Origin: Cloeon dipterum
Taxonomy: Eukaryota; Arthropoda; Insecta; Ephemeroptera; Baetidae
Assembly (NCBI RefSeq): GCF_949628265.1
Contig: NC_088790.1
Location: forward strand, 5,832,545 to 5,896,544
DNA: 64,000 nt
Reading direction: 5' to 3'
Shown here: positions 27,173-54,100 of the stretch, piece after piece
Layout: each line of letters starts with the position of its first letter
How positions within the stretch are numbered: the stretch's first letter is position 1
Notes under the pieces: model-generated
Databases searched by the model: none
Seen by the model: only the letters and a program-made list of their open reading frames with translations
What the model was told of the DNA's origin: nothing
Translations under genes and position numbers: made by a program

Positions 27173-28714
27173 TTAATGGTAGCTTGAGAATATTGCTTCT
27201 TCAATTTTCTTCTTAAATGCACTTGAATTCTCGTTCATACACAAATTTGGTGAAAGACTATTCCAATGACGATAGCACTGCACTTGGAAGCACTGTTCAG
27301 GCACAGTAACATTTACACGCGGAGCCAGAAGCCTCAGTCGATGAGCTCTGGACCTGCCTATCAAGTCAACATCGCGCATGGGGGTAACATAACATTTTAA
27401 ATATTCAGGGCAATTATTGTACAAAATCTTATGTGTTTGTGTTAATACATGCAATTGACGTCTGTCTGTAATCTTTAAGATACGACACTTTTTATACAAA
27501 GATGACAAGTTTTGCCCGCGTTTGACGTCAAATATATACCTCATGAGGTTGTTCTGTAAAACTTGCAGCTTATTCAGTTGCTCCGCGCTAAGGTTACAGA
27601 ACACGATATCACCATAATCAAAATGGGGTAGCATTAGAGTTTTTACTAGTTTAATTCTTATTTTTTCTGGCGTGACATTTCGAAATTTTTCTACATTTTT
27701 AAGTGAACCATAAACTTTTTGAAATATTTTAGAAATTTGACCCACCCACTTCAGATGCTTGTCAAAAACAACTCCTAAATTTTTTACTTTGTCACTATAG
27801 TCAAATTCAACACAGCCAGTTTCCACTTCATCACTGAATTGAATTTCAGTGTCGTTCATTTTAACTTTACTTAACTGCGCCAAGTTTAGCTTTGAGTGCG
27901 ATCTCTCAGAGCCAACAACTAGCACCTGCGTCTTGCGCGGATTGAGCTTTAAACCGTGCTTTTCCGACCAGGCGACCACGTCGCACAAAATACTGTTCAC
28001 AACCGCAATAGCGTGCTCCAACTCCTCAGGCTTGCAATTAATATACAATTGAATATCATCTGCGTACATATGGTACTTACACCGATTTTGAAAGAGATAC
28101 ACTACGTCGTGGGTATAGACGGAAAACAAAAGCGGACCGAGCACCGACCCCTGAGGAACTCCGGCCTCGATGCGGACCCACCTTGAGAATTTTCCGTCCT
28201 TGTCACGAATCGCGTGTTCTCTCTCACTTAGAAAGTTTTTAAAAAAATTTAAAACTGAATCAGAAAAATTTAGCTGCGCCAGCTTCCTGAGCAGCAGAGC
28301 GTGATCGACCAAATCAAACGCCTTCGAAAAATCAAGGAAAACCATAAGGGTTACCTCACCACGGAAATTAGAAATCCGCAAGTCCTCAGAGATTTTCAAA
28401 AGCGCTGTGGTCGTGCTATGCTGCCTGCGGAAGCCGGACTGGAACTCGTCTATCACGTTATGTATATTTAAGTACGTAATCAGCTGGTCGTGGACGATTT
28501 TTTCAAGCACTTTAGACGCAGTGCACAGGACGCTAATAGGCCGAAAATCATTACAAGCAACCGCGTGTCTAACTTTAGGTAGAGGCATTAAAATAGCTTT
28601 TTTCCACTCGGACGGGAAGTGACCTGTTTGTAAAGAGGCATTTACAATATTTGTTAACGATGGCAAAATTGAGTCAGCTGTCAATTTAAGCATTTTGGTA
28701 CAAATTGCGTCCAC
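27173..28714 (-). mobile_element. 5'-truncated non-LTR retrotransposon with open reverse transcriptase frame
   Basis: A single uninterrupted frame of 513 codons holding most of a non-LTR reverse transcriptase. Visible motifs are VFLDFSKAFDLVDHALLLRK (motif A, with FxDxxxAF), EAGVPQGSVLGPLLFSVYTH (motif B), MYADDIQLY (motif C, YADD), and the thumb-side HGLKLNPRKTQVLV. The frame starts just before the conserved finger region (SEWKKAILMPLPK). The upstream endonuclease and gag-like parts are missing, so it is 5'-truncated near 28715. The 3' UTR runs down to about 27060 and ends in ATAATAAAC. Clade is Jockey/CR1-like by motif style only. Absence of frameshifts suggests a fairly recent insertion. 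Confidence 0.9.
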
Positions 28715-28762
28715 TCTTAGCTCACTTCTCTACTCAACATGATGTGATTCATGATTCATTGC

Positions 28763-31219: not shown

Positions 31220-32422
31220 CACTGGCAGCCAGAGACGGCGAAATGGGCGAGGCACTTTGTCTCCCTTCCACGCTTGCCGGCTGTGACGTCAGCACCGGAG
31301 ACTTCTCGGCCAATGAGTCGTAGGTGTCAAATCCTTTATTATTGGTCGACTGGGTGTCGGAACTTGCTTGAATTTAGCATCATTGCCAAGCTACACTCTT
31401 CCTCGACATAATGAAACAAAAACGAAATCTGTACGACATTCCGTTCTCGCTCGGGAGCTGCACACATCGAGCAAAACAACGTTTCGCGCGCGCTAGTGAA
31501 TTTTTACGTTCGAGATTTACGTCCGAATTCGATCTGTAACCCCACATGTTATGCATATGTTTACTTAGAAAAATTAACGGGCTTTCCAGTGGTGTGCTTC
31601 AAAAATTTTTTGGCCCTGAACTTTCCAAGTAATAGCGCCCGCGCGCTGAAAAATAGGAATTTTTCAAATATCGTTATTTTGTAACCTCTAAATCTCGGCT
31701 TCTAACCATCAGAAAATCAATAACTACCCACCGTTGGACTCGTCTCGACCTACCCTGATGAGCTAAAATGGTGAGGGGTGCCTACCCTCCACCCTTCAGT
31801 CGCTAAACTTAAACCCCCTCGGAAAAAGTAAAAATAAGGGTGGTGTCTTAGGGGTGGAGGGTAACAACCCATTTAGGTCATCAGGGTAGGTCAAGACGAG
31901 TCCAACGGTGGGTAGTTTTTTTATTTTCTGATGGTTAGAAGCCGAGATTTAGAGGTTACAAAATAACGATATTTGAAAAAATTCCTATTTTTCTGCGCGC
32001 AGGCGCTATTACTTGGAAAGTTCGGGGCCAAAAAATTTTTGAAGCACACCACTGGAAAGCCCGTTAATTTTTCTAAGTAAACATATGCATAACATGTGGG
32101 GTTACAGATCGAATTCGGACGTAAATCACGAACGTAAAAATTCACTAGCGCGCGCGAAACGTTGTTTTGCTCGCTGTGTGCAGCTCCCGAGCGAGAACGG
32201 AATGTCGTACAGATTTCGTTTTTGTTTCATTATGTCGAGGAAGAGTGTAGCTTGGTAATGATGCTAAATTCAAGCAAGTTCCGACACCCAGCCGACCAAT
32301 AATAAAGGGTTTGACACCTACGACTCATTGGCCGAGAAGTCTCCGGTGCTGACGTCACAGCCGGCAAGCGTGGAAGGGAGACAGAAGTGCCTCGCCCATT
32401 TCGCCGTCTCCGGCTGCCGGTG
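31220..32422. mobile_element. large palindromic hAT-like element, 1.2 kb
   Basis: Two arms of about 570 bases in inverted orientation around a short centre near 31800-31845. Ends are CACTGGCAGCCAGAGACGGC (left) and the complement of CACCGGCAGCCGGAGACGGC (right). Flanked by an exact 8-base direct repeat CGGAAATA (31212-31219 and 32423-32430). The same roughly 62-codon frame (MNFYVRDLRPNSIC...) appears on both strands because the arms mirror each other, so it is not evidence of coding. It is a non-autonomous fold-back transposon of hAT target-site type. Confidence 0.9.
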
Positions 32423-34111: not shown

Positions 34112-37100
34112 AAAAGCAATACATCTCAGTACTGGTTGGATTCATGGAAACGATTTAACGCAATGAACACGGAAAAGTAAGTTTTAATGCCATTTACAAA
34201 CTTACACCTGCTAAATCCTTTGTTGAAGGACTTTGGTGATTATTCAAGATCGAAGTCAAGGGTCTTTTAATGAGGAAGGGAAGAGACATGCTAAATTTAT
34301 AAAAACGAAATGTTTGGAGTTGAGGCAAGTCGGCTGCGAGATCGAGCACAACGATATGATTGATCTCTGTCACGAAGCATTCTTAGAGAGCCTCAAAAGT
34401 AAAAAAAATTGACTCCGGATTAAGACGTTGTTTTTAATCCAAATTGTTTTTAGGTATTGCATCAGGTTCCCGCTGTGTGATATTTATCATCATGTATCGT
34501 GGCGACGGCGGTGGGAAATACTATCCTGAAACGCAATCAGAGAACCCAAAGCCAGTGGAATTAATTGTACAGCAAATTAATTCTATTCAAGTGATTGAAC
34601 ACTGCCCAAAGATAATTTTGTTCATTGTAAATCTGTCGTTATTAATTAATCTCAGTAACTAATGTTTTTCGTTCATTAGGACTTCGAACAAAGGCAGTGC
34701 GATGTGAATAAGCCACTGTATTGCTCCAATGTCAAAAACATCATTGTTTTTCTGAGCGCAACAGAAAGTAGGTTCCTCCAATGTGTATTACGGTTCATAA
34801 TATATTAATAAAAATTATTTGAAGCAGAGTCTAACAGGAATGGCAACAGTTCAAGGATAGAATTGATTGACGCGTTGGTCATCAACATGGTGAATTTAAA
34901 AGAACGAATTGAAGTCAACCAATTGGCACAGAGGATACAAGACAGTTACACCAGAAAAATGAGCAATGGAAATGAGCTGAGTGTGCCAGTCATGACATAT
35001 CCTATGGAAGCCGATTTCTACATAAAGTACGCTACAACTATTAAATTTAATCCAACCTGGATCAATCATGTCATTAATACCTGTTAGAAAAATCTCCTTG
35101 ATGTATCAATCACATATGTGCTGTGATTTCAACTTATAAAAATCTGTTTGCCTATTTAAGTTCGAACAGCAGAGTGCCTGATGATTTTGAGCCAACCCCT
35201 GTACAAGAATTTCCTTGGATGAACCAAAGTGGATCGCAGTTGGCTAAAGGACATTGCTTTATTTTCCACGACTCGAAACACACCAAAGTGGCGAAATCTT
35301 TGGAATGTAGCTTGCAAGAGCAGTGCTTGACCTGGGAACGGCATTTCGTGGCTGACATTTGTGTTGTTCTGAGTCAAGGTAAATGGATAATCCTATTAAC
35401 TAAGCTTATTAAGTATTGTACGAAGGGATTTTTAATGAAAATCTTTTCATGTTTTCAGTATCAAAGAAAAGGGACTTGTATAATGACTTTGGAGTTATAA
35501 TCATTGCGGTCTTCGCTAAACACTTAAAAAGTCAGGAAGGCTATCTCTGCATAGACACAGGAAAGTGCTTCAGATACGCATCTGATATCTTTTTGCCAAT
35601 GTCCAGTTTGAACGAGACCCAAACATTTGAACTCATATTGGATTGCGAATATGAGGCAGTAGACCAAATTTTAGATGAGGTATTTTGGCCATACAAAAAC
35701 GTGATCACGCATTTAATAAAAAATATTTAGGTTTTGAGATCAGACCACCAAAGATTGTTCTCACCTTCTATTGAATTTTGTGCTAAAGGAGAAGGTAACA
35801 ATTTCTAGACGTAATCCAATAGGAAATACTATTTTTTGTTTGTAATTTTAGCACTCGTTGAAGCATTGATCAAAGACCTCGCTAAAATCGATGTGGAGTT
35901 AAGCATTCAACAGATCCTATTTGAGACGCTGAAAAAATTCAGCAATTGCGACAGTTCCATCTTCAGCAATGTGAATCACCAAATTTCACTGAGAAAGTGC
36001 AAGAAAATCGAAGTGCCTCTTTCACTTCAAACTGTACCAGACAATGGAGAACTCCCCAGAGAAATAGACGTGGCATCTGTTGCAAAAGAAATGATAAATC
36101 TACCTAGTAGCAGTTGGATTCTGTCTGGTGCGGCAGGCGCTGGCAAATCTGTCACAACCCGACAAGTAGCCAGGTATTTCGTTACGCACTTTCCTGATCA
36201 CCAGGTGGTATATACAAGTGAGAAATTACTCAACAAACTCTGCACCAGCAATTCTCGAGTCACTCCAGATTTGGTGATGCCACTATTTGCCACTAATGAA
36301 TCAGAACTGGTTGAAATCAAAGAAAAACAACTGAACCAAAAATTGATTATCATGGTTGACGATCTGCAATTGGTTCTCCGTGAGCATGCGGCAAGAGTGA
36401 GGCTTTTTCTAGGCACTTTGAAAGAGCTAGGCGTTACATTGTGGCTCTCAATTCGAGAATTTGATTTTGAGATACTTAGAAATTGCTTAGACCGAGCCTT
36501 CCATTTGATAACTAAGCCGCTCAGCATTGATGACCAAGCCAAAATTCTTTCAACAAAGTTGAACCTGCCGCGCAGTGCAGTTTCTATGTCCCTGCAGAAA
36601 GTCTCCCTTGGAACTCCACTTCATCTTGAAATGGTCTACTCATTAGAAAACCTAACGTCACCTGGATTTGACTTCTACCTTGACTATGTGATGAGGCAAA
36701 TTACAATTGTTCTTCCTCGCAGAAATTTAGAACCAAATGAAGAAATGTGTAATTCATCTCTCCACGAACTGTTAGTCGCTTGCGTAAAATTACGAGACAG
36801 TGGTTCATACCACGCTGACTACCAGAGTTTTGATGGCAAGAACTTTGGATTTCATCAAAGTTTTGCTAACTTTTTCTTGGCCTACAATTTTTCGGCTTCA
36901 ATGGGGTTGGAAAATGAAATCTTCCACCCTGTTCAAATTGACAAAATCTTCAGCCAGCGTGATTTGTATCAAGAGAGAGAATTTATCGAAATGCGACTAG
37001 CAAAGAGCTCAAACCTGAAGGAAGATTTCTCACTCATGTGGAGCGGGTTGGTGAACACAATCGAAACATTGAAGATGAAGGCCCATCACTGCATTTATAA

Positions 37101-40100
37101 CGTCATAAACGAGGGATGCGTCAGGCTTTGCTCGTTTCTGCTGAATCCAGAAGTGTTGAATGCGTTGGGCATTGAAAACTTTCTGGATCCTTATTCTCAA
37201 TTCATGCAGCATTGGAGAAAAGACTATCCAGAGCATTCGCCCTTGTTCTATGCCTTAAAATCGAAAGAAGAAGTCGTAGCTTTGATGCTGATGAGGAGCT
37301 CATCTTTCAAACCCCTCCCTGAAATGAAGTTCTACATCCATGAAGCCGCAAAGAAGGGATATATTCAAGCAACGCAACTGTTGATGCAGAGCCAGCTGCA
37401 GAATGCACTCAATGAAACTGATGACAGAGGATTCACCGCTCTGCACTACGCCGTGTACCACAACCAAATTGAATGGGTTCGGATGTTTCTCTTGATGAGG
37501 CACGCTAGTGCCACCGTCAACGTGTTATCGCCCAAAGAAGTCACGCCTGTCTTCTATGCTGCAGGAAACTGCAACTTGGAAATATTCAGGTTTCTGGTCA
37601 TGTATGGTGCAGACACAAGAATACGAGATGCTGAAGGATCAATAGTTTTGCACTGGATCTTGAAGTCTAAGGCAAATAACTGGCTTGAAATGCTCCAACT
37701 CGTACTATCCCTCAGGCTTTGTGACGTCAACTGCAGGGACAATAGGGGAGAAACTGCCCTCTTCGTTGCTGCCAGGGAGAATAAGTTTTCAGCATTTCCG
37801 CTTCTGGCGGAGAATGGCGCTGACATGAGCGTGTTGAATGAGAACGGACAATCTTTATTGCACATAATTGCTCAGTCTGGGGATGCTGAAGCGTGTCTGC
37901 AAATGATGGCTAGGTTAAACACGTCCATAATCAAACAAATAGATCGCCAAGGAAGAACAGCTCTGCACTTTGCCGTCGAAGCAAACTGCAACGTGGATGT
38001 GGTCCAGTTGATGCTTCTCAGCATTGCTGAATTTGTCACCGGTCTAGACCTTCATGGCCAAAACGTGCTCCACTTGGCTGTGAAACACAGCTCTGAGCAC
38101 GTTGTCGAACTGCTTGCTGAAATCGATGACATGCACTACATTTGCGACGTGAACGGAGACACCCCCATGCATCTGGCAGCGAAGAGCAACGACATCGCTG
38201 CCCTGCGCTTGCTGGTGGCCAGACGCCCTGAGGTGTTGACCATGTCTGATGAGCCGCTGATGCGGGCAGCGATAGAAACGAGGAACGCTCGAGCGATCAA
38301 GTTCATGCACATTCAGCTCCGTAGGAACTCTAGAAACCTTTTGGACAGTTTGAATTTCGAAAGCCTGCATCAAATCGGACCGAACCATGAGATGTCAGAT
38401 GTGCAGGCGGACGGCGCAGTTGCTGGCCCTTCGAGGAATATGCACGATTTTGAGGATGAAGCTAGATCAATGGAAGTGGAGGAAGATGATTTCACCGATA
38501 CATTTAGCGCAGGCCCAAGTGCACCAGTAAATAAACGATACAATTACTTCGTAAATGAACACCTGCACAATCTCAACTTGAACTTTGCGCTGCATCGTTA
38601 TTTCACGTTTAAAAGGGAAATCAGCCATGAGAAAAGATACAATTACGCTCAAAGCGGATTCTTCTACACAAGAGATGACGAAAATATCCAATGTCATTAC
38701 TGCCTTCTGCTTATCCCATTCACTGATGACTACGGCGTCAATTTAAGCTTGGACCAAGTAAATGCCAGACATGGAGCTCTTTGCAAGAGAGAAACTAGGT
38801 AATAATCAAATTCCCAATTTTCTTAATTCTATCCTCCATATTAGTAAACTACATCCTCGTCGCTGAACAAAATCAGCTATTTTTTACAAGTTTCTGTGTC
38901 ACTGTAGTGCTTTAGTTCATCAAAATTATTGCACTGTCAGCAAATTAAAATCACTTGTGCATCAAAATAAATAGGAGTTTGTTCCTTATTGGTACTTAAA
39001 TTTTCAAGACATTACGGCGCTATTGTGACGCTGTAAATTTTCTCCAGTAAATAATTGACGATTTATTTATGATATTAAGGATAAGGTCTTTTTGTAGAAT
39101 CTAAAGCCAACTTTGAATTAAGTCAAATAAAATATTAAAGTTATATTTTCCTACGTTGAAAGTATTAAGGGAAAAAATTCAGTTTTCTTCTGCGTTATTT
39201 ATTTCAATTTCCAACTCATAAAAATTCCCTTGTTTAGCAAAGGAATTTTTTCTCAATCTGTTTATGAACGGTATTTTAATAGGTTAAGTCTTTTCCATTA
39301 AATTGGAACAGTGTAACATCAATTTTTATCTTTTTCTCCTCAGAAAACCATGCCCTTTGATAAGTGGAGGAGACGTCCAAGATGTTCCAATTGTGAATCC
39401 CAGCAACTTCATTTTTGAGTCGCACAGGCTCTACTCTCTCTTGTCTGCAAGCTGGCCAAATCCCTTTGTTAGTGTCTACGACCTCGCCAAATACGGCTTC
39501 TATTACACCGGGCAGGACGACAACTGCAGATGCCTGTTTTGCAAGCTTGAGGTCAGAGGCTGGGAGCCAGGAGACACAGCAGAGGGCGAACACCGTCGCT
39601 GGAACCCTCGCTGCCCGTTCTTGGCGCCCAACAGGCAAACTGAAAATGTTAAAATTGGCGAAGAATTGAATACCCCTGAAAGTGATCATTTGAGCAATCC
39701 TTTCAAGCCAACTCCAATCGCCAAATGTAATGCTTATGTGAAGTAATTTTTACCTGGGACTAATCTGGGAATCTTATTTTAGTTGGACCCCACGTCAAAT
39801 TCTGCAAAAATGCGAAGCCAGGCATTACGATTGAAGCGCTTGGCATTACGCCAGTCGGTGACATGAAATACAGGCAGTACAGCACTTTGCAGTCCAGAGA
39901 AAAGTCATTTAAAATCTGGCCAAAGCAACTGGCCCAAAAACCAGAAGTCCTCAGTACTGCAGGATTCTTCTACACTGGTTTGTACTCAGCGTTGGCAATA
40001 ACTCGTATTTTTCATTTCTCTGTCATTCTAGGATCCGGAGATCGCGTTATCTGCTTCCAGTGTGGCGGCGGTCTCAAGGACTGGGACCCCAAAGACAACC

Positions 40101-40657
40101 CATGGGTTGAGCATGCTAAGTGGTTCAGCAGGTGTCCGTATTTGAGCATCAAAAGAGGAAAGAAGTTCATTGATGACATTATTCGAACCAATGAAGAGCA
40201 AGCCACGTTGTCACAGGATGGACCCACCATGTAAGCTTTTTTCTACCTTATTCTTGAAAGTTTCATCATAAAAGGATTGACTAAAGGAATAATTTAATTG
40301 ATATTTAAAATATAAAAGTCATAGTAATCATAAATTATTGACTCCTCTCACATTGCTCTCTGTTGCGTGTCTGCAGCAAGAACTCAAATAAATGAATAAC
40401 CATGCCAATAAATTATATAAAGTATAATTAAATAAAATAAATTATATAAAGTATTAATATATCCAATTTTATGTTGCAGAGTGAAAAAAGCGCCTGTGCC
40501 CGGAAGTCTTCAATGCTGGGTATGCAAAAGCAAGGATGCCAATTGCGTCAGTCTACCATGTGGCCACATCACCACCTGTGTATACTGTGTTGAGAAAGAA
40601 CTAGATTGTAGAGCGTGTGACAGGAGGAGAGTCGCATATACAGAAGTGTTTCTGTAA
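34112..40657 (+). CDS. caspase-like / NACHT ATPase / ankyrin / 3xBIR / RING protein
   Basis: Thirteen exons share one frame: 34112-34176, 34229-34398, 34454-34626, 34680-34767, 34828-35026, 35161-35378, 35459-35679, 35731-35794, 35852-38798, 39344-39726, 39783-39977, 40032-40230, 40480-40657 (about 1,699 residues). Domains in order: a caspase p20/p10-like region (about 18-232) without catalytic residues (MYRGDGG where SHG is expected, LFIDFEQRQ where QACRG is expected); a NACHT/STAND ATPase (about 486-735) with Walker A SGAAGAGKS, Walker B LIIMVDDLQL, a GTPLHLEMV motif and the NACHT-type FHQSFANFFLAY; ankyrin repeats (about 925-1200); BIR1 (1310-1382, atypical), BIR2 (1406-1478, CLFC...HRRWNPRC), BIR3 (1535-1615, CFQC...HAKWFSRC); and a C3HC4 RING (1652-1699, CWVCKSK...LPCGHITTC). 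The RING implies E3 ligase activity. Inferred role: immune or cell-death sensor. The 5' end is unresolved; an in-frame ATG lies at 34163. Confidence 0.88.
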
Positions 40658-51100: not shown

Positions 51101-54100
51101 CGCACAGATCGGAGGTGCAGGTGCCTGCACGATAGGATAAACTAGTTAAGCGCCGATTTGCATCTCTAGCCAGCCATTGATCGTTCTGCTTTTTGCACGG
51201 GTAATTAGTTTGTCCCACATTTTCACCGATAACGAGACTCATAAAAATTCTAGCTGCTGTCGGTCGGACCGAACTATATGCTTTTATAATCACTTTCGTT
51301 CGGAGTGCGACCGCGCGCGCTCTCGCTAAATTCAAGTTTATGTGAACAAAAGTCGTCCAAGCGAGTGTATTACACCTCGAGCCTTTTTAAAATATTGCTC
51401 GGTGTGTAGTAGTTTAACCGACCGCCAACTTTCTTTGCCATCATGCTGCGCGTTCGGATTTGAAGACGACCTGCTATGGGGAGAGCTCCTTTCCAACGAT
51501 TTATTCATTTCCATATTACAACTAATACTCAGACACGCTCTATTATTGCGATCAAACATTGAGTTGCTAATCGCTTGAATTTCTAATTGTTGATTGAGGA
51601 TGAATGATGCGTCAAAATTATTAATAATAATCGAGGGAAAACGTATAATTTTCTCTCAATAATATATAGATCAGGTGTATCGAGTCTATAGAGCGAGAGC
51701 TGGTTTTTACAGTTTTATTAAAATTATAATAAGCTTGATTTTTTAAACCAGATTCCATGTCAGTTTATTAGTTAAGTGTTAGAAGGACAAAAGGCAAAAT
51801 TATAACTATGGGATATTGTAATTCTCTATTTTAGATCTCATTTAATAAAAATCAAACTAAGAAAAATCGGTGAAAAAATTCAAATAGAGAAAATTTAAAA
51901 TGAAATTTAAGTAAGAGACACATTTTCGACTTGCCAATATTGAAAAACTCAAATTAACTATATTTCTTGTAAACGAAACTGCAGCCATGGAAACCAAGTG
52001 ATAATCTACGGTTTACACACGTGATGTAAAATTTAGACGATCGACAATTTTTTCTGAGCTTCCAATCGCTGCGGAACCATCAAATCAGCACGAGTTATGG
52101 AATTTTAAGCCATCTGAGGCATACTGAAAATTATCTAAAACCATCCAAAACTGCCAAACCCGGCTAAAAGGCGCGTTTCAAACCGTCGTATTCGTTTGGT
52201 GGTATTGCAATAATTTCAGGTTCTGGTATGATTGGAAAAGGTTTCAATTCTTTCTCAAAAGAGAAAGAAAATCACCCTTCGTTTTATTTCATTTTTACAA
52301 TATTTCAGTTTAGACGAAACATTAAAGATCAAACATTTTTATTCAACATTGCATTTTTCCATTTGATAAAAATACAATTCTCTTTAACGAATATCTTGAA
52401 TTTTGGATGCAAATTTGGATTTTGTTAATTGGGTTGAAAAGACTCTCGCAAAACTATCTAATTTGTACGGTTAAAAATAGTCTTTTTCGCTAAAAAAAGC
52501 CAAAAATTTACAGCCATTACATTTATATGACAACTATTAAAATGTGCCACGCAATACAAGTTAGCCAAAATATTAAGAAATAAATATTGGAGGCAGATAA
52601 GAGGAAATGAGTTTAAGTTGATTTTGCGATAAACATGTTATCTCGTGGCCAAAACTTATTCAAGAGAAAGGATGCAACGCACGTGCATCTTGTTTAATTA
52701 AGGAAGTGAAATTAAGACCGTATGTTTGCAAAGAGGAAATTGCAAGTGTTTTAACTCGCCTCGCAGCAACCTCTTACTTCACAGCATGCATGCACTGCTC
52801 CGGTTGCATTTCGGGCACTCTCATCAAACTAAATTCTTGTAATCCTCTTTCAAGAGTGCAATTATATTACGGCATCCAATTGTTATTTTCCTTTTTGAAA
52901 GGATCTGTCGAAGGAATTCATTGGAAAGGATAGAACACCGCACTTCTATTGTATGGATTATACGCCTGGCTTAATTCGCTATATTTAATTATAGAGGGGT
53001 ACAAATAATTTTATCTTCTTGCACAGTAAATAATTCAGAATAAAAAGGACCTCAAAGCGAGTCTCAAACCTTAAATCAGAGAGCCGAATTCTGATTTTAG
53101 GGCTTTACTGCTAACCCGTTTAATTTAAATTTATGTTGCTTCGATAAATAATGTCCCTCAACCAAACGAATCAAACGTAAAATAATTTAAATATTTTGTA
53201 AATTTGCAGATTCTACAGATGTACAAGTTCCAGATGAACCAAAAAGTGCGGAACTTGCCATGGGATACAGCCATGACCCGTGGGGATCACACCAGAGCAA
53301 CCACCCTCCGGAGAAGAGTCGGCGGTCCAAGCGGCACGTGGTGCACCTGTACAACATGGTCTCATGCGCCACAGGATGCGATCCGCTGAGTTACAAGGGC
53401 TACGGCTGCTACTGCGGCTTCCTGGGTTCCGGCTTACCAACGGACGGCATCGACAGGTGCTGCAAAATACACGACTGGTGCTATCAGTCGGCCAACTGCC
53501 CCATGTTTCTCGAGTACTTCATTCCGTATTACTGGAAGTGTCTCTCAGGTCGCCAGCCCTTATGTGGTGAGTGTACTTTTGGAAACAATTAATATTAAAA
53601 AAGGCGTTTATTCTTTATTTGTTATTTTTTGGCTGCATAAAGTAAAATAATAATCAAATTTAATTTCTTCAAATAAAATATTAGTGGTTTTTGTATGTTC
53701 AATTGAAGCAAAAATTGAATGCAAAAAAGAAATTGACATTTTTATCAAAATTGTAAAATATTATCTTTAATTATCACCATTTTACTACACTAACGTGTAA
53801 ATTTGTCTGAATTGGGTGTCAATAAACCGTCTAATTCAGCTCACGAACCATCTATATTACGAAAAAGAAAAAGAATTAAACGTTTTTGTTTTACAGCCCT
53901 TCTTAGCAATATTATTAATGATCGTTTTTTAGTGAATGATAAAAATGACGATTTTAGTTTTTAAAAATAGGTAACAAATTTATATGGTAGAAGATGCACG
54001 ATTCAACAAAATAATGACAATAATGAATTTTCACAGCGGTCGAGCATGGGGAGTGGGGCGGAGGAGGTTCGTGCGCGCAGATGCTGTGCGAGTGCGACCG

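Follow-up and report, generated by a model that had tools for sequence, protein, structure and literature searches.

The window, a stretch of 64,000 nucleotides that corresponds to C5:5832545-5896544 of the 190-Mb Cloeon dipterum assembly, carries on its forward strand a 13-exon gene for a protein (P0001) in which two caspase-like domains, a NACHT-type ATPase, ankyrin repeats, three BIR domains and a RING finger follow one another in that order. The protein matches the NCBI prediction 'uncharacterized protein LOC135944969 isoform X2' at 100% end to end. The features, in window coordinates, are as follows.

34163..40657, + strand: whole coding sequence, 13 exons, 1,682 residues (NCBI LOC135944969 isoform X2, Cloeon dipterum)
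34163-34176, 34229-34398, 34454-34626, 34680-34767, 34828-35026, 35161-35378 and 35459-35679, + strand: exons 1-7 of the gene model
35731-35794, 35852-38798, 39344-39726, 39783-39977, 40032-40230 and 40480-40657, + strand: exons 8-13 of the gene model
34163..35026, + strand: caspase-like domain 1, residues 1-215, exons 1-5 (match to the family caspase profile)
34495..34503, + strand: YRG codons, residues 76-78, aligned to the catalytic SHG of the family (alignments)
35201..35997, + strand: caspase-like domain 2, about residues 229-431, without catalytic motifs, as in the rest of the family
36004..37143, + strand: NACHT-type STAND ATPase and following helical domains, about residues 434-813 (profile and predicted fold)
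36127..36150, + strand: Walker A, GAAGAGKS, residues 475-482
36343..36363, + strand: Walker B, LIIMVDD, residues 547-553, with DDLQL replacing the DGFDE of the family
37336..38274, + strand: ankyrin repeats, about residues 878-1190, limits approximate (Pfam Ank_2, E 8.9e-47)
38572..38798, + strand: BIR1, about residues 1290-1365, the most divergent BIR (Pfam stretch, limits by eye)
39417..39626, + strand: BIR2, about residues 1390-1459 (BIR search, Pfam and structure-database match)
39896..40144, + strand: BIR3, residues 1531-1595, split by an intron (BIR search, Pfam and structure-database match)
40514..40621, + strand: RING finger, residues 1636-1671, eight zinc ligands intact (Pfam and match to cIAP1/XIAP RINGs)

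Every intron of this model is GT-AG, the splice phases agree and there are no internal stops, bearing out the thirteen stop-free exons in agreeing phase given by a preliminary description of the locus; its start at 34112 and length of about 1,699 residues are replaced by a start codon at 34163 and 1,682 residues. As had been noticed, one large exon takes in the ATPase together with the ankyrin block and BIR1; this 2.9-kb exon also contains the end of caspase-like domain 2. Where a single caspase-like fold had been described there are two such domains, both without catalytic residues in P0001. We state the domain architecture and family placement of P0001 with very high confidence.

The front half of the protein is too divergent for searching with a single sequence, and the claim was therefore tested via relatives. 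A PDB search with residues 1-382 returned two chance-level matches, and Pfam scans of two front pieces taken separately gave one chance-level match (E 0.079) for one and none for the other. With P0001 and its orthologue combined, profiles of the mayfly family described below matched the front in the correct order, at 95.0% (caspase 1), 96.7% (caspase 2) and 99.8% (NACHT), against at most 3.6% in 15 controls. For caspase-like domain 1 the corresponding values were 13.6% with P0001 alone and 88.8% with the orthologue alone, and this domain is the weakest-supported part of the protein. The structure predicted for residues 1-813 (mean pLDDT 72.3) matched a caspase fold at 229-431, with an NLR NACHT fold after it; the VIA-align output for this model has no rows on residues 1-215, which is not counter-evidence to a caspase fold there. 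Thus the caspase fold is supported by predicted structure in domain 2, and in domain 1 only by the profile match made jointly with the orthologue. The His-Cys dyad of an active caspase (peptidase C14) is absent from P0001: domain 1 has YRG, with Arg at the His place, against SHG in relatives, and lacks the CRG cysteine. In the second domain of the family as a whole, the positions aligned to the dyad hold other residues; its caspase nature rests on this alignment of catalytic places and on the predicted fold, and comparing caspase 1 with caspase-like 2 by profile gave no real match, merely a boundary overlap.

The ATPase matched the family NACHT profile at 98.8% with P0001 alone. In a Pfam scan, the NACHT model was unmatched in P0001, which gave only weak AAA/STAND matches (best AAA_16, E 0.0014), so that the NACHT assignment made at the outset stands as a NACHT-type domain by family profile and predicted fold, and not by the Pfam model. 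With its changed Walker B, this ATPase may not hydrolyse ATP. PADLOC gave one match to P0001 (E 0.033), in the ATPase part only, and its NCBIfam matches were all of ankyrin type; ankyrin proteins also swamped the results when the full alignment A2 was run against PDB, and that search was discarded.

The C-terminal tail has the BIR domains and the C-terminal RING of an IAP. Pfam recognised BIR in three stretches (E 6.4e-42, 142.4 bits against a cut-off of 22.9), and the best matches of BIR2 and BIR3 were BIRs of NAIP, DIAP1 and cIAP1. The RING scored 23.5 bits against a cut-off of 27, and 27.9 in the orthologue; despite the sub-cut-off score in P0001, its zinc ligands and its match to the RINGs of cIAP1 and XIAP identify it, and the three BIRs and RING first read here are confirmed.

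The relatives used above come from an expanded mayfly family. A NACHT search of the Cloeon genome returned at least 101 stretches, all over the cut-off, of which C4:29.2-36.1 Mb holds 45 and C2:0.79-4.7 Mb another 30; of 36 caspase matches, 9 are followed on their own strand by a NACHT match 1.07-1.64 kb downstream, and the other 27 are not. The spliced model of one locus, L027, encodes a caspase (58.3 bits against a cut-off of 21.4), a second domain unmatched by Pfam, NACHT and ankyrin repeats. Searching a protein database with its residues 1-960 gave 75 proteins at E <=0.001, and by hand count 45 of these carry PF00656 and PF05729 together (37 from Cloeon dipterum and 8 from Neocloeon triangulifer, partly redundant entries owing to two Cloeon assemblies); a BIR domain (PF00653) is annotated in none of the 75. 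The SHG and CRG dyad of caspase 1 is intact in all 51 aligned family rows, which comprise the L027 model and those 50 of the 64 proteins P0003-P0066 with more than 75% coverage, chosen by likeness to L027 and with some redundancy. A motif scan found SHG followed by CRG in 52 of the 64; among the other 12, P0004 has both motifs slightly wider apart and some proteins are without the front part.

These comparisons show that the usual family member consists of a caspase, a pseudocaspase, a NACHT ATPase and ankyrin repeats. P0001 has the same order (caspase 1, caspase-like 2, NACHT, ankyrin) without the catalytic SHG and CRG, and by sequence is a derived relative rather than a typical member. Elsewhere, the front of P0067 matches the end of the family's second domain (98.4%). 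Pfam found no caspase in the cockroach NACHT-ankyrin proteins P0072 and P0076, and the fronts of cockroach P0072, P0076 and P0077 were unmatched by the caspase profiles. BIR domains are also numerous in the Cloeon genome, with 102 stretches, 43 of them in a single cluster at C3:7.77-7.88 Mb. Among five loci read in this cluster, L002, L003, L005 and L008 combine BIRs with a RING within a single open frame; in the frame seen at L004, BIRs occur with no RING.

The same fusion occurs in other mayfly proteins. A search with the window tail among proteins of comparable length found 21 proteins, P0001 included. One of these, P0078 of Neocloeon triangulifer (1,701 residues), is the orthologue: it aligned end to end to P0001 with 39% overall identity, and its ATPase grouped with that of the window protein at 100/100 in ATPase trees. 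The preliminary description would have been contradicted by homologues that always carry the caspase-like and NACHT-BIR parts on separate proteins, and P0078 has them on one. A second Cloeon gene at locus L009 encodes P0080 (also 1,701 residues), in which caspase (46.2 against 21.4), NACHT (37.4 against 26.7), ankyrin and BIR all exceed their Pfam cut-offs within the same protein; here NACHT, ankyrin, three BIRs and RING lie in an intron-free open frame of 1,288 residues. At a further locus, L016 (G000:C3:8345000-8354900), an intact caspase-NACHT reading is followed about 3 kb on by a three-BIR RING tail 56-78% identical to that of the window, and we did not count it as a fusion gene, since it resembles two genes. 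A protein search with P0001 residues 1-900 found only P0001 itself and missed P0078, which was recovered via the tail; short-word searching thus overlooks divergent relatives, and absence from other insects does not follow from it.

Two independent acquisitions of the IAP tail are favoured over a single origin, not proven, on the grounds of the tree constraints and the differing intron layout. In a tree of tails, P0001, P0078 and L016 formed one group and P0080 fell among other mayfly IAPs, and forcing all four tails together was disfavoured (p-AU 0.017). Forcing the three IAP-tailed members together in ATPase trees gave p-AU 0.040 with 28 rows and 0.158 in a denser tree of 45 rows (Cloeon rows thinned by a third, P0065 omitted), in which P0080 was placed among Cloeon members; a single origin is therefore disfavoured by the tails and the 28-row tree, not by the 45-row tree, and in all these tests long branches are involved and related trees had already been seen when the groups were defined. 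As to layout, the window tail has introns and that of P0080 has none in its large exon.

Sequence conservation is uneven along the orthologous pair. Identity between P0001 and P0078 is 22% in caspase 1, 27% in caspase 2, 32% in the ATPase, 34% in the part after it and 37% in the ankyrin repeats, rising to 46% in BIR1, 77% in BIR2, 82% in BIR3 and 68% in the RING. P0058 and P0057, a control pair drawn from these two genera whose caspase is intact, are 57, 54, 56, 49 and 55% identical over the matching front parts. Constraint in P0001 and P0078 falls on the IAP tail rather than on the front. The catalytic dyad is lost in both Cloeon IAP-tailed proteins, P0080 having Tyr for His and Phe for Cys. 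In P0078 the places read QHG and YCD against SHG and CRG, so that His and Cys can be aligned and the surrounding motif is lost. Its caspase is altered and perhaps not dead, and the loss of activity in the Cloeon proteins may be recent, given these alignable residues. Loss of the dyad in all IAP-tailed proteins is therefore rejected, since P0078, aligned alone, keeps His and Cys near the catalytic places; this lowers the odds of the readings as a brake and as an effector swap, and raises those of a relic front.

An invertebrate NLR-like protein with an IAP E3 ligase at its output end, as initially proposed, is what the computed evidence supports, the words 'sensor' and 'effector' being interpretation. 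Our preferred reading, which is tentative and somewhat short of an even chance, is an NLR-like switch whose output runs via the IAP tail and acts on caspases. On this reading the protein would be an NLR-like chassis in which output has shifted from the caspase to an IAP E3 ligase, one that probably restrains caspases. Holding or sensing a ligand would fall to the ankyrin repeats, switching and oligomerisation to the NACHT ATPase, and the IAP tail would take the place of proteolysis as output. The partners of BIR2 and BIR3 would be caspases, or proteins on which an IAP-binding motif is exposed, and the RING would attach ubiquitin to these partners. The likeliest targets would be active caspases of its own family, given that the front retains the build of a caspase-NACHT-ankyrin protein, and P0001 could then serve as a brake or decoy subunit and recruit an E3 ligase to them; the same Cloeon genome encodes relatives whose caspase is intact. 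All these steps, from NACHT switching, ligand sensing and caspase binding to ubiquitylation and the restraint of paralogues, we infer.

The main rival, which we judge rather unlikely, makes P0001 an activator instead of a brake, with a DIAP2- or cIAP-like tail that would build ubiquitin chains and thereby launch NF-kappaB signalling of the IMD type once the NACHT-ankyrin part has sensed a microbe. The three BIRs and intact RING of the tail and the receptor type of the NACHT chassis fit this, and DIAP2 acts in the IMD pathway. BIR2 and BIR3, however, resemble the BIRs of DIAP1, cIAP1 and NAIP, an argument weakened by the fact that cIAP1 itself acts in NF-kappaB signalling, and the Pfam results for P0001 include no UBA domain.

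Second comes an ordinary IAP with a decaying NLR-like relic, also improbable in our view, in which the front would be under relaxed selection and merely localise or stabilise the E3 ligase. The front identities of 22-37%, against 68-82% in BIR2, BIR3 and the RING, speak for it, and a fast-evolving front, which is also expected from relaxed constraint, counts against the switch; the dead caspase domains and altered Walker B of P0001 point the same way. Against a relic, the complete order is kept in open frame across two genera, the protein retains Walker A and its predicted NACHT fold, and the coding model has no stop or frameshift. An artefact in which prediction joined adjacent genes can be largely dismissed as very improbable: the gene model is indeed a prediction, but one 2.9-kb exon runs from the end of caspase 2 to BIR1, P0078 is laid out identically, and P0080 has NACHT, ankyrin, BIR and RING in its intron-free frame.

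Beyond the switch itself, a wider scenario seems to us possible and on balance doubtful. Baetids may possess an enlarged NLR-like immune repertoire of about 100 NACHT genes, mostly clustered towards chromosome ends, whose usual receptor carries its own executioner caspase; an IAP E3 ligase would have been added to the opposite end at least twice independently and the caspase then turned off, so that the system gained dominant brakes or else a new ubiquitin output. If true, an insect would own an NLR arsenal in which the effector had been exchanged, a parallel to the integrated domains of plant NLRs. A genome in which receptor, protease and probable ubiquitin-ligase antagonist share one scaffold would offer a test case for the swapping and restraint of NLR outputs. 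Cloeon dipterum can be reared in the laboratory.

In the published work drawn on here, arthropods are described as without NLRs and invertebrate NLRs as without BIR; background was also taken from PMC2575513 and PMC11797021, and PMC12909245 and PMC8195603 added nothing decisive. A shrimp NACHT-LRR protein has already been described (PMC12370184), and we therefore limit any claim of novelty to the IAP tail, to the chassis of caspase, NACHT and ankyrin, and to insects. Among the matches listed in the open-licence literature we found no paper on mayfly NLR-like genes, which is not proof of absence; the one match listed for Cloeon dipterum and NACHT was a faunal catalogue.

The closest counterparts of P0001 are the mayfly family proteins (e.g. 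LOC135942246, LOC132193609), which have the same front order and match by profile over all three front domains, but whose aligned members keep the catalytic dyad; a BIR is listed in none of the 75 database hits. The BIR2, BIR3 and RING match DIAP1, cIAP1 and XIAP, which to our knowledge are without NACHT, ankyrin or a caspase-like part. The pairing of caspase 1 with caspase-like 2 in the family recalls in function that of caspase-8 and c-FLIP, where a dead caspase domain works beside an active one; the mayfly family holds both in one chain with an ATPase. The vertebrate NLR NAIP (BIRC1), the best PDB match for the BIRs of P0001, likewise combines three BIRs and NACHT in one protein, and Lepisosteus NAIP (P0094) lists BIR, NACHT and LRR-type families. 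In NAIP, however, the BIRs precede the NACHT, LRRs stand in place of ankyrin, and neither a caspase domain nor a RING is known, whereas the BIRs and RING of P0001 are C-terminal and its repeats are ankyrin; domain order and repeat type thus rule out membership of NAIP. The cockroach proteins P0072 and P0076 share NACHT and ankyrin with P0001, but list no BIR and have fronts that the caspase profiles do not match. Fungal NLRs combine NACHT with ankyrin (PMC4986451). P0001 has the NACHT-type STAND ATPase of an NLR, with ankyrin repeats where NLRs have C-terminal leucine-rich repeats, and for this reason we call it NLR-like rather than an NLR.

Immediately upstream of the caspase-NACHT-ankyrin-BIR-RING gene (LOC135944969, window 34163-40657, plus strand) lies a long inverted repeat, and two further open frames of the window were read by eye:

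Window 31258-31664 and 31977-32383: the two arms of the inverted repeat
Window 27173-28729, minus strand: LINE reverse transcriptase-like open frame, 518 residues
Window 53191-53592, plus strand: phospholipase A2-like open frame with the motif CCKIHDWC

The arms of the repeat, each of 407 nt and separated by 312 nt, are 98% complementary, and this arrangement may represent a fold-back or inverted-repeat element.

Three proteins from the database searches are also of note. One caspase-NACHT-ankyrin prediction from Neocloeon (P0050, LOC132193991) contains two ATPase regions, with matches near 600-690 and 1059-1203, representing either a real tandem or a joined model. P0067 combines NACHT and ankyrin repeats, and the short stretch ahead of them matches the final part of the mayfly family's second, caspase-like domain (98.4%); it may be a front-truncated member of this family from a further species. 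In P0096, a prediction from the ostracod Darwinula stevensoni, a weak STAND-like P-loop match is followed by one BIR, possibly making it another arthropod ATPase-BIR combination.

When the Cloeon dipterum genome was searched for BIRs, 43 of the 102 stretches were concentrated on contig C3 at 7.77-7.88 Mb, and at four of the five loci read in this cluster the BIRs and a RING lay within one open frame. The same contig carries another locus, L016:

C3:8345000-8354900: caspase-NACHT reading, with a BIR3-RING tail about 3 kb further on

Its caspase-NACHT reading has intact catalytic motifs. The tail, which closely resembles that of the window gene, is perhaps preceded by a caspase-like remnant.

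The NACHT search of the genome yielded at least 101 stretches, of which 45 clustered on contig C4 (29.2-36.1 Mb) and 30 on contig C2 (0.79-4.7 Mb). Caspase and ankyrin parts are also present in the relatives encoded by this genome. Judged from sequence, these large NACHT clusters are an NLR-like expansion within an insect, a result that outweighs the single window gene as news.
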